A DNA stretch of 35,089 bases from Candidatus Nanopelagicales bacterium (GCA_017848795.1 JAFIHG010000036.1:1-35089), one strand, 5' to 3'. Positions 2,645 through 35,089 are shown, numbered from the stretch's first letter. Notes: generated by a model not told the origin, from the letters alone. Program-made: numbers and translations.

Positions 2645-4618
2645 TCAGCCCTCCGACTCGCCGCCGGCGAGGCCGGCGCTGATGAGATCCATCACCGTCG
2701 GGTCGGCGAGGGTCGTGACGTCGCCCAGCTCACGCTTCTCCGCCACGTCCCGCAGCAACCGGCGCATGATCTTTCCCGAACGTGTCTTGGGTAGTTCGGA
2801 GACGACCATGATCTGGCGGGGCTTGGCGATCGGCCCGATCTCCTTGGCAACGTGGTTGCGCAGCATCGTGGCGATGTCGCCGTTCACCGAGTCGGCGTCC
2901 CCGCGCAGGATCACGAACGCGACGATGCCCTGCCCGGTCGTCGGGTCGGTCGCACCGACGACCGCCGCCTCCGCCACGGACGCGTGCGACACGAGGGCCG
3001 ACTCGACCTCGGTGGTGGAGATGCGGTGCCCGGACACGTTCATGACGTCGTCGACCCGGCCCAGCAGCCACAGGTCCCCGTCCTCGTCCTTCTTCGCGCC
3101 GTCACCGGCGAAGTAGCGGCCCGGGAATCGCGACCAGTAGGTGTCCTTGTACCGCTGCGGATCGCCCCAGATGGTGCGCAGCATCGCCGGCCACGGCTCG
3201 GTGAGCACGACGTACCCGCCCGAGCCGTCGGGCACCGGATTGCCGGACTCGTCCACGACGTCGGCGCTCACCCCGGGCACCGGCTGCATCGCTGCGCCGG
3301 GCTTGGCGCTGGTGACCCCGGGCAGCGGACTGATCATGATCATGCCGGTCTCGGTCTGCCACCAGGTGTCGATCACCGGGGTGCGATCACCGCCGATGTT
3401 CGTGCGGTACCAGATCCACGCCTCCGGGTTGATCGGCTCACCGACCGACCCGAGCAGCTTCAGCGAGGACAGGTCGTGGGCCCGCGGGAACTCCACTCCC
3501 CACTTCATGAAGGTACGGATCGTCGTCGGCGCGGTGTAGAGGATCGTCACGCCGTACTTCTCGATCATCCCCCACCACCGGTCCTTCGCGGGGGTGTCCG
3601 GGGTGCCCTCGTACATCACCGAGGTCGCGCCGTTGGCGAGCGGGCCGTACACGATGTACGAGTGGCCGGTCACCCAGCCGATGTCGGCCGCGCACCAGTA
3701 GACGTCGGTGTCCGCCTTGAGGTCGAAGCAGGCCCAGTGCGTGTACGCCACGCCGGTGAGGTAGCCGCCGGTCGTGTGCAGGATCCCCTTGGGCTGCGCG
3801 GTGGTTCCCGAGGTGTACATGACGTAGAGCGGGTGCTCGGCGTCCATCGGTTCGGCGGTGTGCGCGTCGGACTGCCGGTCCACGATCTCGTGCCACCACA
3901 CGTCGCGGCCCTCGGTCCAGCCGATCTCCTGACCGGTACGGCGTACGACCAGCACCGAGCGGACGTCGGGGCAGTGCGTGAGCGCCTCGTCGACGGCCGG
4001 CTTCAGCGCGCTCGCCGCCCCGCGGCGGTACCCGCCGTCGGCGGTGATCACGACGTGCGCGTCGCAGTCGATGATCCGGCTGCGCAGCGCCTCGGAGGAG
4101 AACCCGCCGAACACCACCGTGTGCGGTGCGCCGATCCGGGCGCACGCCAGCATCGCGATGACCGTCTCGGGGATCATCGGCATGTAGATCGCGACTCGGT
4201 CGCCCTTCTTCACACCGAGCTCGAGCAGCGCGTTCGACGCTCGGCACACGTCCGCGAGCAGGTCGGCATAGGTGATCGTCCGGGTGTCACCGGGCTCGCC
4301 CTCCCAGTGGTAGGCGACCCGGTCCCCGCGCCCTGCCTCGACATGGCGGTCCAGGCAGTTGTACGCGACGTTGAGCTCGCCGCCGACGAACCACTTCGCG
4401 AACGGCGGGTCCGACCAGTCCAGGACCTCGTCCCACGGTTTGGCCCAGTCCAGGCGCCGGGCCTGCTCGGCCCAGAACGCCAGCCGGTCCTTCGCGGCCG
4501 CGGCGTACGCGCTCTCGCCGACGTTCGCCTTGGCCCGCATCGACTCCGGTGGTGGGAACCGACGCTCCTCGCGGAGCAGGTTGGACAGCGTCTGCTCGGT
4601 CCCTGCGTGTTGTGTCAT
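2645..4618 (-). CDS. acs: Acetyl-CoA synthetase (acetate--CoA ligase, AMP-forming)
   Basis: A 657-residue enzyme of the ANL superfamily that turns acetate, ATP and CoA into acetyl-CoA, AMP and PPi in the cytosol. The ATP-binding P-loop is '[19 protein letters not shown]'. The acetate-pocket motif '[11 protein letters not shown]' carries the Trp that limits the acyl group to acetate in Acs enzymes. The hinge region '[14 protein letters not shown]' and the C-terminal '[11 protein letters not shown]', with the catalytic Lys that is the usual acetylation target, are intact. ATG 4616-4618 follows GAGAGG at a good distance; an in-frame upstream start (4672) would add 18 residues unlike the family. 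It lies 76 bases after the acetate transporter and is probably co-transcribed with it. Confidence 0.97.
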
Positions 4619-7356: not shown

Positions 7357-10011
7357 TCAGCGTGCGGTGACGTCGACGATGCCGTGGGCGCCGCGCTCGG
7401 CGTCGGACATCACGTGGGTCACGAACGGGTAGTGCCCTGCCTGCGGGAAGGTGAGCTCGACGAACCCGCCCTGGGCCGGCGCGAGATCGAGCGCCTGGCT
7501 GCCTCCGGTACCGCTCTCCGGCCGGCGCAGCAGGTACGCGCCCTCCTTGTAGACCGTGTCGAACTGCCCGCCGACCACGTGGAAGGAGCCGGCGACGTTG
7601 GGCCCGGCGTCGAGCACCCAGATCCGGACCCGTTCCCCGACCCGGGCGCTCAGCTGGGCGTGGTCGTACTGGTTGGCGTATCCGTTGAAGGTCACCAGGT
7701 CCGGCATCTTGGTGGCGACGCGTTCGGGGGGCGCGCTGCCCCCCTCGGGGCCGAGGTACGTCTCGGACTGGACGAGCAGGTACTGCTTGTCCACCGGCGG
7801 CAGGTCCGGCGGGTCGATGACCACGGCACCGAACATCCCGTTGGCGATGTGCAGCGACATCGGCATCGTCGAGCAGTGGTACATCCAGATCCCGCTGCGC
7901 GTGGCGGTGAAGGTGTAGGTCAGCTCCTCGCCGGGGCCGATGGTGCGCATCGGCCGGTCCGGTGCGAGGGCACCGGCGTGGAAGTCGATGGAGTGCCCGA
8001 TGGTCCCGTCGTTGACCAGCGTGACGATGAACTTGTCCCCGACCTTCCCGTGCAGCGTCGGGCCCGGGGCGGTGCCGCCGAAGGTCCAGCGCACCTGGGT
8101 GACCCCCTTGCCGTCGGCGGACGGCGCGACCTGCTGCGGGGTCTCGGTCACCTCGAGCCGCACCCGGTGCACCGTCCCCTGCGGCGCCGGCGCCAGCACC
8201 GGGTCGTACGCCTGGAACGCCGGGCCGGGGTCGGCCATCAGGTCGACGTCACCGGCCGCGCTCGGCCCGCTCGGCGTGGTCCCCATGTCCATCCCGGACA
8301 TGTCGTGACCCCCGGTCGCGGCGGTGCCGGATCCCCCCGGCCCACCGGTCACGTCGACCGCGAACACCATGCCCAGCTGCCGGTGCCCGGCGACCGAGCA
8401 CCAGCCGGCCAGATCCTGCCCGACGACCCCGACGTCGAGGGTCGCCTGCTGGCCGGGGCCGAGCAGCGGCGTGCCCGCACCGTTCTCGAGCACCAGGTCG
8501 TGGGCCATGTCGTCGGCGTTGCGCAGCTCGATCACCAGCCGGTTGCCGGCGGGGACCGTGACGCTCGCCGGGTGGAAGCGCATCCCCTGCATGACCACCT
8601 GCACCGTCGTCGTCTCCCCCGTCGCGGTGACCGAGCCCTGGGCCGAGACCGTCCCGATGCCGGCCCCCGGCGGGTCGGCGGCGACCCCGAGCGTCACCGC
8701 CAGCAGCACCACGGCAAGCCCGATGCCGGCTCCGGCGCGCCGCCGTTGGGCGGCGACCGGGTCCGGCGGCGGGCGGTAGGGCGCGGGGCGCGGCGATTCC
8801 CCCGTGACCGCCGCGCCCCGCAGTCTGCGGGAGGCGAGCAGCGCGCGGACGAGCAAGGGCAGGAAGGTCGCGTACGCGACGAGCAGCACGACCGAGCACA
8901 CGACGCGGACCAGGCTCGGCACCGGCAGCAGGCACACCAGCAACGCCAGGTTCGCGGTGCTGACCCGCCAGAAGGCGCCACGGTCGAGCTCAGCGGTGGT
9001 GAGGCGTACGGCGTTGGGCCCACCACCCAGCACGACCGGCACCAGATAGCTGAGCGCCCCGAGCAGCACCGGCAGCACGAACCCGGCGAGCACCGCCGCG
9101 GTGAGCCACTGCCCACGGCCGATCACCGTCGCCCAGTCGGGGGCGGAAGCGGTGGTGAGCGCGAACGCCAGCAGCGAGCCGCCCAGCCAGAGCACCCCGC
9201 CCAGGACCGACAGGGTCGCGAAACCGGTCGGCGGGCGGACCCTCGCCTCCTGCGCGAACGGGCGGCACCACCACAGGAATCCGGCCAGGTAGCAGACGAT
9301 TCCGGCGGCGACCAGGTAGCGCTGCCCGGCGAGCGCGCCCGCCGCGGCGACGACGATGCCCGCGAGCAGGATCGGCAGTACGCGCCGGGAGGTCAGCTCG
9401 GCCCGCTCCACGATGCGCGTGCGCAGCATGGTGGGCCAGAGGGTCACCAGGGTGCCGATCACGGTCAGCGCCACCCAGCCGAGCAGGTTCACCACCGCGT
9501 GCGCCGCGACGAGGTGCGGGTACGCATCGCCCGGCAGCGAGCCGTGCGTCATCGCCACCCCGAAGCCGACACCGACCGGCAGCAGCAGTCCGGCAGCGAC
9601 GTAGTAGCGCAGCGTGCTCGCGAAGCGCGAGGGCAGCGAGCGGCGCATCCGCAGCAGCAGCGCGACGACGTGCCAGAGCACCGCGGCGACGACCGCCGTC
9701 CCACCGGCGAGGACCGGCGGCCAATGCCCGCCCACGACGCCGACCACGACCGCGACGGCGCCCGCGTTGAGCAGCAGCAGCCGGCTCGCCTCGATGCGGC
9801 GGGACTCCGGCTCGGGCAGGCGCAGCAGCGCCGCCGCGAAGTGCGCGCTCCAGATCAGGATCGCGTTGGTGACCGCACCGAGCAGCAGCAGGTGCACCAT
9901 CAGCCAGCGCGACGCCGGCACGAACCGGTGGTCGACGGCAACGACCAGCAGCGCGAGCAGCCAGGCGACGACGAGCGATCCGGCGCGCAGGTGCCACCCG
10001 GTGCGGTTCAC
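7357..10011 (-). CDS. nirK: Membrane-anchored copper nitrite reductase: polytopic N-terminus, cupredoxin, NirK-type multicopper domain
   Basis: An 884-residue fusion. Residues ~1-450 are polytopic membrane helices with many His (for example 'MTHGSLPGDAYPHLVAAHAVVNLLGW'). Residues ~451-550 form a type-1 copper cupredoxin domain ('MAHDL', then 'WCSVAGHRQLGM', the Cys-x4-His-x4-Met loop). A Met/His-rich linker 'GGHDMSGMDMG' follows. Residues ~600-884 are a copper nitrite reductase: 'HSIDFH' holds the first type-1 His, catalytic Asp and a type-2 His; 'YHCSTMPMSLHIANGM' holds the type-2 His, type-1 Cys, His and Met; 'SFHVVGG' has the catalytic His and 'YPFVTH' the last type-2 His. It should reduce nitrite to NO outside the membrane. 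The GTG start (10009-10011) overlaps the preceding stop by 4 bases, so the pair is translationally coupled. Confidence 0.9.
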   Translation of the reverse strand: MNRTGWHLRAGSLVVAWLLALLVVAVDHRFVPASRWLMVHLLLLGAVTNAILIWSAHFAAALLRLPEPESRRIEASRLLLLNAGAVAVVVGVVGGHWPPVLAGGTAVVAAVLWHVVALLLRMRRSLPSRFASTLRYYVAAGLLLPVGVGFGVAMTHGSLPGDAYPHLVAAHAVVNLLGWVALTVIGTLVTLWPTMLRTRIVERAELTSRRVLPILLAGIVVAAAGALAGQRYLVAAGIVCYLAGFLWWCRPFAQEARVRPPTGFATLSVLGGVLWLGGSLLAFALTTASAPDWATVIGRGQWLTAAVLAGFVLPVLLGALSYLVPVVLGGGPNAVRLTTAELDRGAFWRVSTANLALLVCLLPVPSLVRVVCSVVLLVAYATFLPLLVRALLASRRLRGAAVTGESPRPAPYRPPPDPVAAQRRRAGAGIGLAVVLLAVTLGVAADPPGAGIGTVSAQGSVTATGETTTVQVVMQGMRFHPASVTVPAGNRLVIELRNADDMAHDLVLENGAGTPLLGPGQQATLDVGVVGQDLAGWCSVAGHRQLGMVFAVDVTGGPGGSGTAATGGHDMSGMDMGTTPSGPSAAGDVDLMADPGPAFQAYDPVLAPAPQGTVHRVRLEVTETPQQVAPSADGKGVTQVRWTFGGTAPGPTLHGKVGDKFIVTLVNDGTIGHSIDFHAGALAPDRPMRTIGPGEELTYTFTATRSGIWMYHCSTMPMSLHIANGMFGAVVIDPPDLPPVDKQYLLVQSETYLGPEGGSAPPERVATKMPDLVTFNGYANQYDHAQLSARVGERVRIWVLDAGPNVAGSFHVVGGQFDTVYKEGAYLLRRPESGTGGSQALDLAPAQGGFVELTFPQAGHYPFVTHVMSDAERGAHGIVDVTAR

Positions 10012-11141
10012 GGCACCGCCTGCAGCACCGGCTGCGACGGCGCGCTCGGGGTCGCGCCCGCCGCGCGACCGCGTACGACCGACCACACCGCGATGACGAC
10101 GAACAGCAGCAGCGCGACGATGTTCACTGCGCCGCCGACCTGCCAGGCCCAATCGACCTCGCGCAGGTCACCGACCGCGATGCGCAGCAGCAGCGATGCG
10201 GTGAGCAGCGCGGCCGGGACGTACATCACCGGGTGGTACGGCAGCGGGCGGCGGATCACCGCGGGCAGGATCACCGGCGCGTGCGCCATGATCATCATGA
10301 TCACGAAGCCGAGGAAGACGCCGTGGACGACGGCGTCGTAGCCGAAGCCGCCGGGCTGCTGGCCGAGCAGCAGCCACACCGCACCGGCGACTGCCAGCCA
10401 GGCGTACCCGGTGAGCAGGCAGGCGGCCATGAACCGCGGCAGCCCGGTGCCGCGCACGGTGCGGCGGGCGACGTCGAACCGTGCCAGCCAGCCGACGAGC
10501 GCGAGCAGGGCGGCGCCGAACAGGGCGTAGCCGGCGACCGGCCACAGCAGGGCGACGCCCGCAGCGAGCATCACCGCCGCTGCCGCGCCCACCAGCAGCG
10601 GCGCGGCGCGCGGGCCGAGGACGACGACATGGGCGAGCTCGAGGCGTTCCCCGACGATCGTGAGCACCAGGAACCCGACGAGCCAGGGCAGCAGCGTCGG
10701 CACGCCGACCCCGCTCAGCCAGAGCAGCGACCCGCCGGTGGCGAGCACCGCGCCACCGGCCTGGACGAGGACCGCGTCGGCGGGACTGCGCCGCCACAAC
10801 GGCACGTAGAGCGCGACGAGCGCGGCGCCCCCGACGACGAACAGCGCCCGTCCCACGGCGAGGGGCGCGGGAGTGAGCAGCAACAGGCCACCGACGCCGA
10901 GCGCGGCCGGGGCCAGGTAGCCCCAGCGCCGCCCGAGCGCGACGGCCCGTTCCAGCGCGACGACGGTGCCGACGAACCCCAGGACCAGGAGCATGCCGTG
11001 CACCTCGGGCAGCCGGCTGGTGCTGACCGGCGCCGGGAGTCCGAGCAGCAGCAGCGCCGCATCGAGTCCGGCGAGCAGCGCGATCCCGCCTGGGACGAGC
11101 AGCAGGGTCCGGGCGGGCACCGCACGCGAGGGTTCAGCCAC
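10008..11141 (-). CDS. NnrS-like polytopic membrane protein
   Basis: A 377-residue protein made almost entirely of hydrophobic helices (about 11-12). It carries 'HGMLLVLGFVGT' near the N-terminus and 'VVHGVFLGFVIMMIMAHAPVILPAVIRRPL' near the C-terminus. Such His-containing helices resemble NnrS, a haem- and copper-containing membrane protein linked to NO stress, but similarity is judged by eye. The GTG start overlaps the end of the HTH gene by 8 bases and its stop overlaps the nitrite reductase start, so the three genes form one transcript. Likely helps nitrite/NO metabolism or electron delivery; the exact role is unknown. Confidence 0.75.
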   Translation of the reverse strand: MAEPSRAVPARTLLLVPGGIALLAGLDAALLLLGLPAPVSTSRLPEVHGMLLVLGFVGTVVALERAVALGRRWGYLAPAALGVGGLLLLTPAPLAVGRALFVVGGAALVALYVPLWRRSPADAVLVQAGGAVLATGGSLLWLSGVGVPTLLPWLVGFLVLTIVGERLELAHVVVLGPRAAPLLVGAAAAVMLAAGVALLWPVAGYALFGAALLALVGWLARFDVARRTVRGTGLPRFMAACLLTGYAWLAVAGAVWLLLGQQPGGFGYDAVVHGVFLGFVIMMIMAHAPVILPAVIRRPLPYHPVMYVPAALLTASLLLRIAVGDLREVDWAWQVGGAVNIVALLLFVVIAVWSVVRGRAAGATPSAPSQPVLQAVP

Positions 11142-12673: not shown

Positions 12674-14089
12674 TCAGCCGATGCCGGCGTCCTGGCGTTC
12701 GAGCGGCTCGGGCGCGAGTCCCTCCTTCTCCTTGGACGCCTTCAGGAACGCGTAGATCGGGATGCCGATCAGCACCAGCAGCAGCGCCTGGTACACCGCC
12801 TGGTAGCCGCTCGCCGCGGTGACCCAGAGCGAGAACAGGATGCTCACGGTCGCGATCAGGACATCGCGCGCCAGCACCGCACCGTGCACCCGGCGCCGCC
12901 GCGACACGAGGTACGCGAGCTGGGCGCAGGCCGAGAAGAAGTACGGGATGGCGACGGTCACGACCGAGAGGTTGACCAGATAGGTGAACACCTGCAGGCC
13001 GGCCTCGCCGGTGTAGCTGTAACCCATGAGCACGCTCGCGACGAGCGTCGAGACGATGATCCCGAACCAGGGGATGCCGGTCGCCGTGCGCTTGGCGAAC
13101 GGGCCGAAGAACAGCTTCTCCTTGGCCGCGACGTACGGCATCTCGGCCGTCACCATCGTCCAGCCGTTCAGGGCGCCGATGCCCGAGATGACGGCGACCA
13201 GGGCGACGAGCTTGCCGACCCAGGCGGCCGTGCCGAACATCGCCTCGAACGCAACGACGAACGGCGCGCCGTTGTCGATCAGCTGCTCGGCCGGCACCAG
13301 CCCCATGATGGCGGCGGTGACCAGGACGTACAGCAGCGCGGCGGCGGCGGTGCCGATGATCGAGGCCCGCCCCACGTTGCGTGCCGGGTCCTTGACCTTG
13401 CCCGCGGCGATGGACGCGGTCTCGACGCCGATGAACGAGAACAGCGCGACGCCGGCAGCGATCGAGATCGCGTCGAAGAGCGATCCGCCGGACGCGTTGA
13501 ACGCGGGGAAGTTCACCGTGCTGACCCAGATCCAGCCGAGCAGGCCGACGACCAGCAGCGGCAGGAACTTCAGGACCACTGTGATCATCTGGAACAGCGC
13601 CATCTGCCGGACCCCGGCGAGGTTGATGATCGCCGGGACCCACAGACCGGTGAGCGCGATACCGAAGCTCACCCACGGGCTGGGGTCCTCCAGCCCGAGC
13701 AGCGCCTGCACGTAGAACACCCAGGACGACACGATCGCCGCGTTGCCGGCCCAGCAGGTGATCCAGTAGCACCAGGCGGTCAGGTAGCCGGCGAAGTCGC
13801 CGAACTCGTGGCGCGCGTACGCGTACAACCCGCCGTCGGAGCTGGGGATCCGCTTGGTGAGCTGACCGAACATGACTCCCAGCAGGACGGCGCAGCCCGA
13901 GATCACGATCAGCACCAGGATCGAGATCGTGCCGCCGCCGGCCATGACGGCCGGCATGGTGAACACGCCCGTCCCGATGATGCTCCCGATCACCAGCGCG
14001 GTCGACGCCGGCAGCCCCAGCGCGCGCTCGCTGGCGGGCGAGCCGGGCTGCTGCTGCGGCGAGCTGTCCTGCACCATCAGCGTGGACAT
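12674..14089 (-). CDS. APC-superfamily amino acid permease/antiporter (basic amino acid type)
   Basis: A 471-residue transporter with about 12 membrane helices. The N-terminal 'ALVIGSIIGTGVFTMPAVMA' is the APC substrate-binding loop of helix 1 (GSIIGxG), and 'SFIGVETASIAAGKVKDPARNVGRAS' matches the helix 6 region. The overall pattern resembles arginine/ornithine and arginine/agmatine exchangers such as ArcD/AdiC, but specificity cannot be fixed. ATG 14087-14089 follows GGAGGAG; the in-frame extension upstream is not membrane-like. It is the first gene of a unit with ddaH, pointing to methylated arginine, arginine or citrulline as substrate. Confidence 0.88.
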   Translation of the reverse strand: MSTLMVQDSSPQQQPGSPASERALGLPASTALVIGSIIGTGVFTMPAVMAGGGTISILVLIVISGCAVLLGVMFGQLTKRIPSSDGGLYAYARHEFGDFAGYLTAWCYWITCWAGNAAIVSSWVFYVQALLGLEDPSPWVSFGIALTGLWVPAIINLAGVRQMALFQMITVVLKFLPLLVVGLLGWIWVSTVNFPAFNASGGSLFDAISIAAGVALFSFIGVETASIAAGKVKDPARNVGRASIIGTAAAALLYVLVTAAIMGLVPAEQLIDNGAPFVVAFEAMFGTAAWVGKLVALVAVISGIGALNGWTMVTAEMPYVAAKEKLFFGPFAKRTATGIPWFGIIVSTLVASVLMGYSYTGEAGLQVFTYLVNLSVVTVAIPYFFSACAQLAYLVSRRRRVHGAVLARDVLIATVSILFSLWVTAASGYQAVYQALLLVLIGIPIYAFLKASKEKEGLAPEPLERQDAGIG

Positions 14090-14230
14090 GGTGACTCTCC
14101 TCCCACGTGTGCCGTGGACGCAGTGACCCCCGCGCTGTCCAGTGAACCGCCGCCGGAGCAAGATCGGATGAGTCCTAGGTCCCGAAGATCGTCGCCGCGG
14201 CCGTGACGGGTGTCACCCCGCGCGGTGCTG

Positions 14231-15095: not shown

Positions 15096-15562
15096 GCGGG
15101 TCGGCCGGCGAGGAGCGCGCGGCAGCGGCACTCGTCGCCGGGCAGGTGGCGCTGCTCGCCGTCATCGCGATCGCGCGTCGCGGCACCGACTGGCCGCGGC
15201 CGCGCGCGCTGCGCTACCTCGCGGTCACGGGCCAGCTCGCCGGAGCCGTGTTCTCCGGCCTCGGGATCCGCGCGCTGGGCGACGCGCTGACGCCGTCGCC
15301 GTTGCCGCTGCGGACCGGATCGCTGCGCACGGACGGGCCGTACGCCATCGTGCGTCACCCCGTGTACGCCGGGCTGCTGCTGGGCGCAGGTTCCCGCACC
15401 GTCGGGTCGGGCGATCGACGCGCGGCCGTGGCGTTCGTCGCACTCGCGGCGCTGCTGCACGTGAAGGCCGGCTTCGAGGAGCGCCGCCTCGTCGCGAGGT
15501 ATCCGGAGTACCGGGCGTACGCGTCCCGTACGCCGCGACTGTTGCCTCGCCCGCGGCACTGA
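15092..15562 (+). CDS. Isoprenylcysteine carboxyl methyltransferase (ICMT/PEMT-like) family membrane protein
   Basis: A 156-residue protein with hydrophobic segments near residues 10-25, 45-60 and 105-125. The C-terminal half carries 'LRTDGPYAIVRHPVYAG', the SAM-binding RHPxY motif of ICMT/PEMT enzymes, and 'EERRLVARYPEYRAYASRTPRLLP', the closing motif. The natural substrate in bacteria is usually unknown; a membrane lipid or isoprenoid thiol is possible. ATG 15092 overlaps the upstream stop (ATGA), showing co-translation with the PEP mutase/ICL-family gene. Confidence 0.88.
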   Translation: MSGSAGEERAAAALVAGQVALLAVIAIARRGTDWPRPRALRYLAVTGQLAGAVFSGLGIRALGDALTPSPLPLRTGSLRTDGPYAIVRHPVYAGLLLGAGSRTVGSGDRRAAVAFVALAALLHVKAGFEERRLVARYPEYRAYASRTPRLLPRPRH

Positions 15563-29615: not shown

Positions 29616-31658
29616 TCAGCGTACGGTGTCCGCGCGCGCTCCGTCCGGCGCACCGGCCAACTGCTCGGCGAGGGCCGCGGGCGCGGTCACCGGCGCGTCG
29701 CAGCTGAAGTGCCGGCAGACGTACGCGGTCGCCTCGCCGCCGAGCAGCACGCGACCGGCCAGCAGCGGCGCCCCACTGTCCGGCTCGCCCACCGAGACGA
29801 CGAGCCCGGGTGCCGGCGCGGCGAGCGCGACGCGGTGCAGCGCCGCGCGCGCCTGCGTGTCCGGGCCGACGACGGCGACCTCGCGCGGCCCGTCGAGCCA
29901 GGCCTCCAGCGTGGCGAGCGACCAGCCGGCGAACCGGGCCGGCAGCCGTCCGGCAACCGTGGCGAGCGCGTCCTCGGCCGCCGTGCGGTGGTGCTCGGAG
30001 CCGGTGAGCGCGGCGTACGACAGCAGCGCGTCGGCGAGCGCCGACCGCCCGGAGGGCGCGGCGGTGTCCGCCGGGTCCTGCGGGCGGATCACTAGCTGCT
30101 CCCCGTCGTGCGGGGTGTCGAAGAAGTCGCCGGACTGCGGGTCGCGGAAGTGCTCGAGCGCGGCGTCGAGCAGTAGTCCGGCCGCGGCGAGCCGACCGCG
30201 GTCGCCGGTCACCTGGTGCAGGGTCAGCAGTCCGGCGGCCAGGTCGGCGTAGTCCTCCAGCACCCCGCCGGCCGTCCCGGCGACGCCGTCGCGGGACACC
30301 CGGCGCAGCCGGCCGTCGTCCAGGTGCAGGTCGAGCAGCAGGTCGGCGCACCGGTCCGCTGCGCGGACCCAGTCCGGCTCGTCGAGCAGGGCGCCCGCCT
30401 CGGCCAGCGCGCTGATCGCGAGCCCGTTCCAGGCGGCAACGACCTTGTCGTCACGCGCCGGTTGCGGGCGGGCGGCGCGGGCGGCGTGCAGCGCGCTCCG
30501 CACCCGCGCCCAGCGGCCCGGATCGGTCGGGTCGGTGCGCAGCGTGAGCACCGACGTGCCGTGCTCGAACGTCCCTGTCGCGGTGACCCCGGTCAGCGCT
30601 GCCGCCCACTCGCCGTCCGCCACGCCGAGCACATCGGTCAGCTGCCCGGGCCGCCAGACGTACGTGGCGCCCTCGCTGCCATCGGTGTCGGCGTCGAGCG
30701 CGGAGGCGAACCCGCCTTCGGGCGTACGCAGGTCGGCGAGCAGGAACTGCGCCGTCTCCCGTGCGACCCGCCCCGCCAGCTCGCTGCCCGTCGTACGCCA
30801 CAGGTGCACGTAGGCGCGCAGCAGCAATGCGTTGTCGTACAACATCTTCTCGAAGTGCGGTACGGTCCACTGCGCATCGACGGAGTAACGGGCGAAACCA
30901 CCGGCGAGCTGGTCGTACATGCCGCCGCGGGCCATGCCCTCGCACGTACCCTCGACCATCCGCAGCGAGCGCGGGTCGCCGGTACGGGCGTGGTGGCGCA
31001 GCAGGAACTCCAGCACCATCGATGGAGGGAACTTCGGCGCCGTCGCGAACCCGCCGACCGCCTCGTCGTACTCCGCGGCGAGCTGCTCGACCGCCTTGTC
31101 GAGCAGCGGGACGACCGTGTCACGCTGCAGCGGGTCCCGCCCGGACGCCGCCTGCCGGGACTGCTCCGCCAGCGCGGCCCCGATGCGCTGCGCTGCGGTC
31201 GTGACCTCCTCGCGGTCGCGGTGCCATGCTTCGTCGATCGCCTGCAGCAGTTGACGGAACGAGGGCATGCCGTGCCGCGGCTCCGGCGGGTAGTACGTAC
31301 CGGCGTAGAACGGCTCGCCAGCCGGCGTCGCGAAGACCGTCATCGGCCAGCCGCCGCGCCCGGTGAGCGCCTGCGTGGCTGACATGTACACCGCGTCGAC
31401 GTCGGGGCGCTCCTCCCGGTCGACCTTGACGGCGACGAACCGGTCGTTCAGGTACGCAGCGACCGCGGGGTCCTCGAAGGACTCGTGCGCCATGACATGG
31501 CACCAATGGCAGGCCGCGTACCCGACCGAGATGAGGATCGGTGCATCGCGACGCTCCGCCTCGGCGAACGCTTCGGGTCCCCACTCCCACCAATCCACCG
31601 GATTCTCAGCATGTTGGAGCAAGTAGGGGCTGGTTGCGTTTGCGAGGCGGTTGGCCAT
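29616..31658 (-). CDS. DUF255 / YyaL-type thioredoxin-domain protein
   Basis: A 680-residue protein. The N-terminal thioredoxin-like domain begins '[35 protein letters not shown]' and has 'CHWC' (Cys50-x2-Cys53), then '[16 protein letters not shown]' and '[10 protein letters not shown]'. The rest is an (alpha/alpha) barrel similar to N-acylglucosamine epimerase/cellobiose epimerase ('[17 protein letters not shown]', '[17 protein letters not shown]'). This is the bacterial relative of spermatogenesis-associated protein 20; the reaction is unknown. ATG 31658 is preceded by GAGGAG. Confidence 0.94.
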
Positions 31659-31849
31659 TCCTGTGACTCCTCACGAGTGGCACGTGCGTCATATGGTCCA
31701 AATGAGACACGAGACTGATACATGAATCCGGTTCTGCGGAGTCCGACTCGACTCCTCCCCGTCCAGCCTAGGAGGGACGCCGGTAGCGTCGCCGCCACGA
31801 TGACGACCTTCTGACGCAGCGCGGGCGGGGCCCCGGTCCGCGTGATCCA

Positions 31850-32401
31850 TCAGGGCCGCAAGGCGGCGACCGACTCGACGAGGCCGTCACGTTCGAGCAT
31901 TGCCAGGACATCAGCGAACGTTGCCGGAGGGTTGCCTCGGGAGTCCGCTATCCGCTGAACCGCCCCGTAGACCGAGTCACGGCTCACGGCGATCTGATCG
32001 ACGATGAAGTCGTCGGCCGATTTAGCCTCAATATCCCACTTCTCCAGCACGTCGGGCGGAAAGTCCTTCAGGTTGTGCGTCACAATCACGCGGGCGCCTG
32101 CCTTGATCGCTGCCGCGAGCACGTGGCGGTCGCCGGGGTCCGGCAGGTCGACCGCGTCGACCAGGGCCTCGTAGCCCTTCACGAGGCAGTCGCGGACCGC
32201 GCCGTTCATGAGGTCGCGCGTGCGGCCCAGCCGCTGCGCATCGAGGTCGGGCCGATTCATGGCGAGGTTGCCGAAGACCTCATCGAGGATCTGGTCGGTC
32301 CACTTCGCCTGAACCAGTCCCGCTTGTGCGACGCGGATCAGCAGGTCTCGGAGCGTGCTCGGGTAAAGCACGTTGGCGTCGTAGAGAACGACGAACGACA
32401 C
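31850..32401 (-). CDS. PIN-domain toxin (VapC-like ribonuclease) of a toxin-antitoxin pair
   Basis: A 183-residue PIN-fold protein (PIN_3 type). The acidic metal-binding residues are Asp8 ('VLYDANVLYP'), Glu41, Asp91 ('DLPDPGDRHVLAAAI') and the Asn110/Asp113 pair in 'VTHNLKDF'. PIN toxins cut tRNA or mRNA to stop translation. The GTG start (32399-32401) is one base after the antitoxin stop, so translation is coupled. At 183 residues it is longer than classical VapC (about 130), with a C-terminal helical extension. Confidence 0.88.
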   Translation of the reverse strand: MSFVVLYDANVLYPSTLRDLLIRVAQAGLVQAKWTDQILDEVFGNLAMNRPDLDAQRLGRTRDLMNGAVRDCLVKGYEALVDAVDLPDPGDRHVLAAAIKAGARVIVTHNLKDFPPDVLEKWDIEAKSADDFIVDQIAVSRDSVYGAVQRIADSRGNPPATFADVLAMLERDGLVESVAALRP

Positions 32402-32402
32402 C

Positions 32403-32858
32403 TCAGAGAAGACCCATCTCTTGGTTGAGCCGGGTCAGCTCGTCTGCGGCCTGACGGCGCTCCTGGTCGTCGCGTGCCATGTAGGCCATCAGCGACTGCG
32501 CCTTGATCCGCCGGTGCTTGCCCACCTTCCGGTAGTCGATCTCGCCAGCATCGAGCAGGCTGATGAGGAACGGCCGGCTGACGTTGAGCAGTTCCGCCGC
32601 CTGTTGAGTGGTCAGTTCCGCGTGCGCAGGCACCACCGACACCCCCTGCCCCGCAGCCATGTGCGCAAGCACCTGAGCGAGGAGTTCCACGGCACGGCGC
32701 GGAACAACGAGGGTCTCCGCAGGATCGTCCGCGACGACGACGCGGACAATGCTGTCGGCGTGCTCGGCCAGGTAGTTCTTGACCTGAGGCAGCGCCTCGA
32801 CAGCGGTGTTGATGTCGGACTCGTCAGGCCGGACGGGCGTGAGTGCCGAAGTGTTCAT
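32403..32858 (-). CDS. HTH antitoxin (excisionase-type DNA-binding domain)
   Basis: A 151-residue protein. Residues 81-128 form an excisionase/MerR-like helix-turn-helix ('ELTTQQAAELLNVSRPFLISLLDAGEIDYRKVGKHRRIKAQSL'). The N-terminal 70 residues are helical, and the 23 C-terminal residues are charged and may wrap the toxin. In such operons the antitoxin both neutralises the PIN toxin and represses its own promoter. ATG 32858 follows AGGAGAGGAG. The 9-bp tandem repeats upstream are the likely operator. Confidence 0.87.
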   Translation of the reverse strand: MNTSALTPVRPDESDINTAVEALPQVKNYLAEHADSIVRVVVADDPAETLVVPRRAVELLAQVLAHMAAGQGVSVVPAHAELTTQQAAELLNVSRPFLISLLDAGEIDYRKVGKHRRIKAQSLMAYMARDDQERRQAADELTRLNQEMGLL

Positions 32859-32880
32859 GGTGTCTCCTCTCCTGAGTGAC

Positions 32881-32916
32881 CAGTATTCGCAGTATTCGAA
32901 GTAAACGCAATAGTCG
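32881..32916. repeat. Four tandem 9-bp repeats in the divergent promoter region
   Basis: Units in exact 9-bp phase: CAGTATTCG (32881), CAGTATTCG (32890), AAGTAAACG (32899), CAATAGTCG (32908). The first two are identical; the third and fourth match at 6 and 7 of 9 positions. The array lies 22-58 bases before the antitoxin start and about 90-125 bases before the TOTE gene. It is AT-rich against the surroundings and likely binds the antitoxin cooperatively. Confidence 0.75.
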
Positions 32917-33007
32917 CCGATCCAGTCCTAGCCTCGTCGCCCGAGATGAGAGGTGGGAGGTCGGCCGTCCGGTCGACTTCAGCGGCGCTACCGGCAGGAT
33001 TGACGTC

Positions 33008-34954
33008 GTGAGCGACCTGCAGGCCGAACTGGAGAGCTTGAGGCGCGAGAACGCGCGACTGCGCAAGTTGCTCAAGCTAACGGATGCGGAAGTCGCGCCC
33101 GCTCGCGGCACCCAAGCGGCGTGGTTCGACAAGGCGCCGGGCTCCGTGGATGCTCGGTCGTCCTCGCAGGTCAAGGTCGAGTTCTACGCCGCACTGTTCG
33201 GCGCAAGACGGGACATCTATGCCGTCCGCTGGGACAATGCCCGCACCGGCAAGTCCGGGTGGATGCCCGCAGTCGAGGGCGGGTGGCGCAAGGGCCGAAG
33301 AGCCTCCGACATTCGACACCTGCCGCTGACGCCTGAGGTGCTCGCTGCGCATCTGACCGGCGACGTCCACATCGGCCTATATCCGATGCTCCCCGGCGAC
33401 CAGACCTGCTGGCTCGCCGCCGACTTCGACGGGCAAGCAGCGATGCTCGACGCGCTCGCCTACCTGAAGGCGGCCCGAGCTGTAGCCGCACCCGCCGCCC
33501 TGGAGGTGTCCCGGTCCGGAATCGGCGCGCATGTCTGGATCTTCTTTACCGACCCCGTACCAGCGGCAACCGCGCGCCAACTCGGGACCTCACTGGTCCG
33601 CGAAGCCATCGCGATCCGCGGCCGGATGGATCTGCGCTGCTACGACCGGCTCTTCCCGTCCCAAGACGTTCTCCCCGGACGAGGTCCAGGCAACCTCATC
33701 GCCGCACCACTCCACGGCAGATCACGCAAGCTCGGCACGACGGTGTTCCTCGACCTGGCCACGCTGGAGCCCTTCGACGACCAGTGGGAATACCTCTCCA
33801 CCCTGGAGCGCCTCACACCAAAGCAAGCTACGAGGCTCGCGTCTGCGCTCCGCGAGCCGACAGTCGGGGCACACGTCGACCGCGCACAGCCTGCCCGGTC
33901 GACCAGGACTCAGCCAAATCCGGCACCGATCGTCCATCTGACGCTCGACGGCACGGTGAGGATTCCCGGGGCGGAGCTGAGCCCCTCGCTCTACGCGACC
34001 TTGAAGCACGCGGCGTCGACGTACAATCCAGAGTTCTACAACCGCCAGCGCCGCCGGCAGTCGACGTGGAACGTCCCGCGCATCGTCACCTCCTACGACG
34101 AGACGCTCGATGACCACCTCGTCCTCCCGCGCGGACTACGCGACACCGCGACGCGACTCATCGAGGGAGCCGGCAGCAAGGTCGAGGTCGACGATCAGCG
34201 GGTCGCCGGAGATCTGTTGCGCCTCTCGCCGACCTTCGAGCTCAGACCGCAGCAGCAGGAAGCAGTGGAGGCCGTACTGCCGCACGAGTTGGGACTCTTG
34301 GTCGCTCCGCCCGGCTCTGGAAAGACCGTCATGGCCTGCGCCGTCATAGCCCAGCGAACCGTCTCCACGCTGGTGCTGGTCGACCGCAAGACGCTCGCCG
34401 ACCAATGGCGCCGCGAGATCACCGACATCCTCGGCACGAAGCCGGGGCAGCTCGGCGGCGGCCGATCCAAGCTCACCGGCATTGTTGACATCGCCACTTT
34501 ACAGACGCTCGCCCGCCGAACCGACCTCGCCGACAAGCTCGGCGCCTACGGCCAGGTCATCGTCGACGAGTGCCACCACATCCCGGCAGTCGCGTTCGAG
34601 ACCGCTGTCCGCACCATCCCAGCGCGCTACTGGGTCGGGCTCACCGCCACACCTTATCGGCGCGACGGCCTCGATGACCTGATCGGCTTCCAACTCGGCC
34701 CCATCCGCCACACTTTCATGCATGCCGACCCCGACACGCTCGAAGGTGCCAACGCCGCGCGGCCACGCCCCGAACTCATCGTTCACCCCACAGCATTTCA
34801 GTTGTCGGAACCAGTCGACTTCGCCAGCCCGGGTGCGATCGCGAGCGTCCACGCGGCACTCGCAAATGACGGGGCTCGAAACGAGCAGATCCTTGCCGAT
34901 GTGGTCGACGCTCTGAGGCGCGGACGACACTGCCTTGTCCTGGCTCAACCCTGA
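33008..34954 (+). CDS. TOTE-type archaeo-eukaryotic primase / superfamily II helicase, C-terminally truncated by an IS element
   Basis: A 648-residue remainder. It begins with a leucine zipper ('LQAELESLRRENARLRKLLKL', in two blocks), then an archaeo-eukaryotic primase domain with the metal pair Asp139-x-Asp141 ('AADFDGQ'), His175 in 'SGIGAHVW', and 'DRLFPSQDVLPGRGPGNLIAAPLHG', which I recognise from TOTE conflict systems. The helicase N-terminal half follows: Walker A 'APPGSGKT' (Lys439), 'DECHH' (Asp520-Glu521) and 'GLTATP'. The frame ends just after 'RHCLVLAQ', where family members continue into the helicase C-terminal domain. Motifs V-VI and any nuclease domain are missing, so activity is doubtful. 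GTG 33008 is preferred over the in-frame 32876 start, which would cross the repeat-side region. Confidence 0.85.
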   Translation: MSDLQAELESLRRENARLRKLLKLTDAEVAPARGTQAAWFDKAPGSVDARSSSQVKVEFYAALFGARRDIYAVRWDNARTGKSGWMPAVEGGWRKGRRASDIRHLPLTPEVLAAHLTGDVHIGLYPMLPGDQTCWLAADFDGQAAMLDALAYLKAARAVAAPAALEVSRSGIGAHVWIFFTDPVPAATARQLGTSLVREAIAIRGRMDLRCYDRLFPSQDVLPGRGPGNLIAAPLHGRSRKLGTTVFLDLATLEPFDDQWEYLSTLERLTPKQATRLASALREPTVGAHVDRAQPARSTRTQPNPAPIVHLTLDGTVRIPGAELSPSLYATLKHAASTYNPEFYNRQRRRQSTWNVPRIVTSYDETLDDHLVLPRGLRDTATRLIEGAGSKVEVDDQRVAGDLLRLSPTFELRPQQQEAVEAVLPHELGLLVAPPGSGKTVMACAVIAQRTVSTLVLVDRKTLADQWRREITDILGTKPGQLGGGRSKLTGIVDIATLQTLARRTDLADKLGAYGQVIVDECHHIPAVAFETAVRTIPARYWVGLTATPYRRDGLDDLIGFQLGPIRHTFMHADPDTLEGANAARPRPELIVHPTAFQLSEPVDFASPGAIASVHAALANDGARNEQILADVVDALRRGRHCLVLAQP

Positions 34955-35089
34955 TCCACCGATGATCATGATGCTGTGAGCGTGGCGTAACACAAGAATG
35001 CCCTTGCTGGGCGGGAGAATTGGGCTTGCTGAAGGTCCAGATCCAACGCCGAGCAAGGGGCACCCTGTAAGTGAAACCTTCTCACACGA
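34949..35089 (+). mobile_element. Left end of an insertion sequence (IS1380-family candidate), runs off the window
   Basis: The helicase frame breaks after codon CAA at 34946-34948, and the following DNA has no protein similarity until a transposase-like start at 35071. The boundary is placed from the break; the terminal repeat cannot be confirmed as the other end is not in the window. 34999-35012 and 35048-35062 form an inverted repeat (TGCCCTTGCTGGGC against GCCGAGCAAGGGGCA) able to fold just before the start codon. Confidence 0.6.
35071..35089 (+). CDS. Start of IS1380-family transposase (partial)
   Basis: GTG 35071 opens the peptide V-K-P-S-H-T, cut by the end of the window. IS1380-type transposases of actinobacteria often begin with such a K/Q-x-S-H-T sequence. 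Only six codons are present, so the family call is tentative. Confidence 0.45.

Follow-up and report, generated by a model that had tools for sequence, protein, structure and literature searches.

The toxin-antitoxin (TA) pair and the primase-helicase gene that face each other near the end of the window (the whole stretch of DNA analysed, 35,089 nucleotides from Candidatus Nanopelagicales bacterium) are best explained as parts of an integrative mobile cassette that uses the 5' end of a DUF255 gene as its insertion site and would combine an exchangeable addiction TA module with a mobile-element primase-helicase. We put the probability of this reading at about 0.55. Helicases of this type are recurrently adjacent to TA genes, their partners are exchanged, and such units lie inserted between repeats. 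An earlier note on the same DNA had proposed a locus in which loss of the antitoxin would switch on both toxin and helicase. Because related helicases pair with many TA modules, mobile-element cargo appears likelier than such a wired suicide-defence switch.

Genes of the Locus

The domain assignments confirm the earlier description of a PIN toxin and an HTH antitoxin lying head to head with a primase-helicase, since PIN_3 and HTH_17 are matched on one side of the gap and AEP-TOTE (E 3e-70) and ResIII helicase (E 1e-24) on the other in Pfam (Table 1). The separation of 149 bases given in that description holds with GTG 33008 as the helicase start. The genes were also found where they had been placed, but position 34954, taken as the end of the locus, is not the end of the helicase: the stop codon there results from an insertion sequence that enters and cuts the reading frame at ~34949. 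The sequenced neighbourhood further includes DUF255, a gene of exonuclease/phosphatase type and an AI-2E transporter.

Table 1. Features of the primase-helicase locus and its borders, in window positions.
Feature	Position	Strand	Remarks
DUF255 gene 5' end, putative attachment sequence	31498..31660	-	
Left end of the inserted element (DUF255-PIN interval)	31661..31828		partly common to L083, L253 and L316
Cassette conserved as a block	31829..34949		94% nucleotide identity to the Nocardioides MAG locus L081
PIN-domain toxin, 183 aa, GTG start	31850..32401	-	PIN_3 family, E 4e-9
Excisionase-type HTH antitoxin, 151 aa	32403..32858	-	HTH_17/excisionase, E 1e-12
Intergenic gap between antitoxin and helicase, 149 bp	32859-33007		helicase start taken as GTG 33008
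Operator-like tandem repeat, CAGTATTCG CAGTATTCG AAGTAAACG CAATAG	32881..32916		upstream of antitoxin start
AEP-TOTE primase fused to XPB-like SF2 helicase, N-terminal 647 codons	33008..34949	+	interrupted by insertion sequence
End of multicopy insertion sequence, inverted repeat CCCTGATCCACC	34949..35089		extends to contig end

A single nucleotide separates the antitoxin stop codon from the toxin start. The HTH gene adjoins the PIN gene in all close relatives examined, standing immediately upstream of it in PIN relatives at 60-92%, and the catalytic acidic residues of the PIN toxin are conserved. The primase catalytic residues (DxD, SxSGxxxH and D) do not vary across the aligned relatives (59/59), among which the helicase Walker A/B motifs are near-invariant. 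The nearest solved relatives of the SF2 helicase part are XPBII and RAD25, and the primase domain matched the CRISPR-associated primase-polymerase chains 7nqd/7nqf (E 3e-5) in a sequence search of solved structures; the same search with the PIN and HTH genes, and with the partner genes of two further loci described below (L316 and L253), gave no match. Among the matches listed for a phage collection, only the helicase domain was represented.

The 3' part of the helicase gene lies on a separate contig of the same genome (G000:C56:8198-8590), and a CTCAA repeat stands at both junctions between insertion sequence and helicase (window and C56). The end of the insertion sequence is present on four other contigs as well (C13, C16, C27 and C42), and a transposase was not seen for this multicopy element. 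All of its visible junctions read CTNA(G/A), suggestive of a preferred target.

Recurrence of the Cassette

The divergent arrangement was sought by a PIN scan of the genome contigs followed by tblastn on the fetched loci. The cassette was recovered from a Nocardioides MAG (L081) and from Gordonia rhizosphera (L083), the latter at 85% nucleotide identity and in a locus cut by a contig end. Antitoxin and helicase are ~150 bp apart in both, and in these comparisons the DUF255 flank is far more divergent than the cassette block. In another actinobacterium (L242), an HMM scan of helicase loci detected HTH, PIN and helicase genes that are co-directional and almost overlapping. This locus is separate from the window cassette on the helicase tree, which indicates that the HTH-PIN-helicase linkage arose there independently of the cassette. 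With the cassette in two other genera and the pairing in L242, uniqueness to the window genome, which the earlier note had regarded as the mark of a chance juxtaposition, can be rejected. A simple one-to-one PIN/HTH-helicase system was also considered and rejected, as the pairing is found only in the window cassette type and in L242.

PIN/HTH pairs mostly stand without the helicase, which accompanies them in 2 of ~39 fetched related loci. Such scarcity would suit a reading in which the two are independent cargo, accreted in an insertion hot spot and functionally unlinked; a cassette block common to three genera argues against it.

The neighbourhood that had been proposed for a search in intact form was thus found as an arrangement, in L081 and L083, but with an intact PIN frame in neither. 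In L083 a stop near codon 17 and a frameshift disrupt the frame, and that of L081 is frameshifted, with sequencing error possible in this low-coverage MAG. The HTH antitoxin is intact in the window, L081 and L083 (3/3), and in the window it is the PIN/HTH pair that is intact and the helicase that is broken. The non-intact PIN frames of both sister copies, taken together with the broken window helicase, argue against obligate coupling; survival of either half without the other would be as expected for loosely linked cargo.

The DUF255 Insertion Site and Partner Exchange

The unit abuts the DUF255 gene start in the window, in L083 and in L253, a locus of the closed genome G154. In L253 a complete DUF255 gene lies on one side of the unit and its first 57 codons are repeated on the other (4353-4515 and 10789-10951; a repeat of 163 bp, 92% identical). 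Two consecutive upstream DUF255 5' fragments are present in L315 (G015; 10758-10919 and 15105-15275) and one in L316 (G020; 4494-4607), and a single 5' fragment stands beyond the helicase in L081. Direct target repeats surround the unit in L253, L315 and L316, whereas L081 and the window genome each have a single copy. That a second DUF255 fragment was not found in the window's own genome counts against the mobile-cassette reading, and implies that one border has been lost or left unassembled. In an empty-site comparison within the window's own family, the AI-2E gene did not adjoin the DUF255 start. To judge from these borders, the DUF255 start is an insertion hot spot. The same 5' end (window 31464-31658), belonging to a thioredoxin-domain gene, recurs as an insertion site with displaced fragments in several actinobacteria.

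The helicase of L253 is 86% identical to that of the window and stands at the same site with a different, co-directional gene pair, one gene for an HTH protein and one for a nucleotidyltransferase-like protein. This pair is a putative TA module that does not reach the AbiEii model. In the unit of L316 an HTH gene is accompanied by a toxin-like one (3798-4286), to which a fragment on the right side of the unit in the window genome is related: directly past the 3' end of the helicase, the 5' part of a toxin-like gene (L239, 7988-8182) has 66% amino acid identity to the L316 gene over 65 residues. The TA partner would accordingly be exchangeable, one helicase lineage at one site being joined either by PIN/HTH or by the HTH and nucleotidyltransferase-like pair. 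If this is right, the site offers a natural experiment, in which orthologous helicases occupy one chromosomal position with different partner pairs, so that roles of the pair as guard, as addiction module or as mere cargo become directly testable. The DUF255 site of L315 also holds unrelated genes, a further point in favour of independent accretion.

The Operator-Like Repeat and the Question of Shared Control

The operator-like repeats reported earlier for the gap are real, with the tandem 9-mer CAGTATTCG confirmed at 32881-32898. Upstream of HTH, the repeat block is conserved in 11 loci, eight of them helicase-free and three with a helicase, and it is recognisable in Lentzea and Streptomyces loci. 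Conservation of this extent means that the repeat is more than chance, and its persistence in helicase-free loci assigns it to the PIN/HTH pair. Co-regulation of the helicase through the window repeat is possible.

These data bear directly on the suicide-coupled switch, in which one control region would serve both directions and antitoxin loss would turn on toxin and helicase together. A divergent gap of 149 bp with a conserved operator-like repeat, a similar spacing in both sister cassettes and the likewise divergent AbiE, HepT and RES pairs of L250, L278 and L260 are all compatible with such a switch. However, 22 bp separate the repeat from the start of the antitoxin gene and 92 bp from that of the helicase gene, and loci where no helicase exists keep it too; TA partners of related helicases vary in type and orientation, most being co-directional or differently spaced; and at the same DUF255 site L253 carries another pair. 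Shared control of the kind first proposed is thus not borne out, and we consider the switch very unlikely.

In six loci (L057, L058, L060, L062, L078 and L080) a close PIN/HTH pair begins ~100 bp after the end of an apparent tyrosine recombinase gene, an identification confirmed by Pfam in L057 only; several such loci are from Nocardioides. That PIN/HTH can follow a tyrosine recombinase is in keeping with the independent-cargo reading.

TA Partners of Related Helicases

A census of AEP-TOTE helicases comprised 58 loci, namely 37 genome loci drawn from order, class and phylum samples, 17 plasmid loci, 2 viral contigs and the 2 sister cassettes. The ORFs lying up to 1.7 kb upstream of the helicase were scanned against Pfam. 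An upstream TA gene was detected in 14 of the 37 genome loci, so that the linkage of helicase and TA suggested by the window does extend to chromosomal AEP-TOTE helicases, as a strong enrichment of TA genes on their 5' side. The upstream partners are AbiE (L240, L250, L264, L265, L268, L277 and L283; in L268 the antitoxin is upstream and the toxin 2.6 kb away), PIN (L242, L245 and L247), MNT-HepT (L278), ParE (L282), PemK (L267) and HicB (L274), and on plasmids and viral contigs RES/Xre (L260), HipA (L291), AbiEii (L160) and Fic (L159). Among downstream ORFs, recombinases dominate (11) and toxins are few, in tallies of the 25 commonest families that may undercount rarer downstream TA families.

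AbiEii occurs at 105 places in 43 helicase-bearing genomes. In the 2 kb that precede the helicase it was found 6 times against 0.075 expected under uniform placement, an excess of ~80-fold, and downstream twice; PIN_3 was found upstream 2 times against 0.06 expected under the same placement. The uniform null is a generous one, as both families live in defence or mobile islands, and its neglect of AbiEii clustering in islands weighs against the mobile-cassette reading. On the helicase tree, the distribution of AbiE requires no fewer than six state changes and that of PIN/HTH no fewer than two, which points to frequent exchange of TA partners. In ten held-out plasmids, the start of the helicase had an annotated TA nearby in no more than 1-2 cases. 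This result is a second point against the mobile cassette, and since the enrichment is largely unreplicated there, the claim extends to the genome sample alone. The TA link is a feature of that sample and is non-obligate.

The independent-cargo reading accommodates the plasmid helicases, which mostly have no annotated adjacent TA. Set against it are the upstream-concentrated AbiEii adjacency and the separate state changes of AbiE and PIN/HTH on the tree, and with these it appears distinctly improbable.

In three loci of the set (L241, L251 and L252) a 427-aa DUF4143/AAA_14 ATPase, and no classical TA, stands upstream of the helicase; PADLOC PDC-S01 matches occur in the set.

Relation to Described Systems

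The window protein has the Pfam AEP-TOTE effector domain in common with TOTE conflict systems, which are defined by TPR, OB, TBP and effector components (PMC12458937, citing Aravind 2022). No TPR(-CSD), cold-shock/OB or TBP genes were found beside the window helicase, nor do TPR-CSD, OB or TBP figure in the 25 families that most often flank its 58 relatives. As these partners are absent, the locus is not filed as a TOTE system, and assignment to a full system of this type was rejected. Of the TOTE designation in the earlier note, the domain therefore stands; the defence role read from the name is not supported, given the missing partners and the presence of relatives in transposons, RIT and integrative elements.

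In domain order, AEP then helicase, the window gene resembles non-CRISPR members of the CAPP_A-type CRISPR-associated primase-polymerases (PMC8211822), and non-CRISPR AEP-helicase fusions are found mostly in mobile or transposable elements (PMC8211822). Unlike CRISPR-associated primase-polymerases, the gene does not stand beside CRISPR and is paired with a TA module, and it scores far under the cut-off of the CRISPR-associated NCBIfam model. Bacterial PrimPol-PV1 AEPs, as described in part of PMC5862659, lie nearly all in integrated elements, often at tRNA genes, with the AEP gene between direct repeats as in the helicase loci studied here; those elements have different AEP families, and the same part of the paper does not mention a DUF255 target (PMC5862659). 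The TA pair itself is akin to PIN-HTH type II modules of the RSP_2648 kind, with the same antitoxin-toxin order, 1-nt spacing and active-site residues and with a conserved operator-like repeat, but it scores 115 against the NCBIfam RSP_2648 cut-off of 170 and is divergent to a helicase.

Guarding of defence systems by TA modules is established for CreTA (PMC9458426, PMC10097628), and CreTA-guarded CRISPR-Cas resembles the window in placing a TA beside a nucleic-acid-processing system. By analogy, the helicase could attack incoming DNA and the TA could be a fail-safe that fires upon helicase inhibition or loss. Several observations would suit such a guarded defence unit: TA genes of many unrelated kinds are enriched 5' of the helicase and repeatedly exchanged, and L242 adjoins two genes that resemble, by eye, JetA/JetB of Wadjet. 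However, CreTA is an RNA-based system under Cascade repression, while the window shows no sign of the helicase controlling the toxin. The operator-like repeat is unchanged in helicase-free loci, the window helicase is broken beside an intact PIN/HTH pair, the PIN frames of L081 and L083 are not intact, and no defence test of the AEP-TOTE helicase family was found in the literature searched. A guarded unit is on balance unlikely.

Searches for TOTE together with primase or AbiE returned a single relevant mention, and the open-access literature, in which few subscription journals are represented, contained no account of exchangeable TA partners for AEP-TOTE helicases or of the insertion site at DUF255.

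A Model of the Proposed Mobile Cassette

In the mobile-cassette reading, family membership and the conserved putative operator suggest that the HTH protein neutralises the PIN nuclease and acts through the repeats at 32881-32916 as repressor of the toxin operon to which it belongs. If the cassette were lost, the labile antitoxin would decay and the PIN toxin would act, making the pair an addiction module. The fusion of AEP and XPB-like helicase would be the DNA-handling protein of the element, most likely priming and unwinding DNA during replication or repair of a mobile form, or else acting against a competitor. If correct, this would make small mobile cassettes the biological setting of a family that takes its name from conflict systems.

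Mobile Context and Direct Repeats

Among loci with sufficient flank, direct repeats surround the helicase in 13 of 46, compared with 15 of 145 control windows (p 0.007), and 6 of the 13 repeats coincide with a tRNA 3' end, as judged by eye or with ARAGORN. In L247, L252 and L253 the repeats tightly frame the partner gene or pair together with the helicase, and no integrase gene was seen between them. Neither the cassette nor the L253 unit was seen to encode a recombinase, an IS3-type insertion excepted, which is another argument against the mobile-cassette reading. Tentatively, and with considerable doubt, AEP-TOTE helicases with swappable TAs may form a whole class of repeat-flanked, recombinase-less integrative cassettes of 3.4-5 kb, in which the primase-helicase would drive propagation or competition and the TA would enforce retention, the DUF255 5' end being one target.

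L247 contains three direct repeats (7439-7599, 10819-10974 and 13975-14135), one of which includes a tRNA-Arg gene; they split the TA-helicase unit from an adjacent AbiEii segment, in what looks like tandem accretion.

On Rhodobacterales plasmids, the helicase and three tyrosine recombinases lie inside inverted repeats, in the RIT arrangement, and other plasmid helicases adjoin TniB/TniQ of Tni-type elements. The RIT-type elements with a helicase in L284, L285, L289 and L293 have inverted repeats of 150-180 bp with 98-100% identity. In L326 and L328, from Pantoea and Escherichia albertii plasmids, the helicase is flanked by resolvase and Tn3-family transposase genes.
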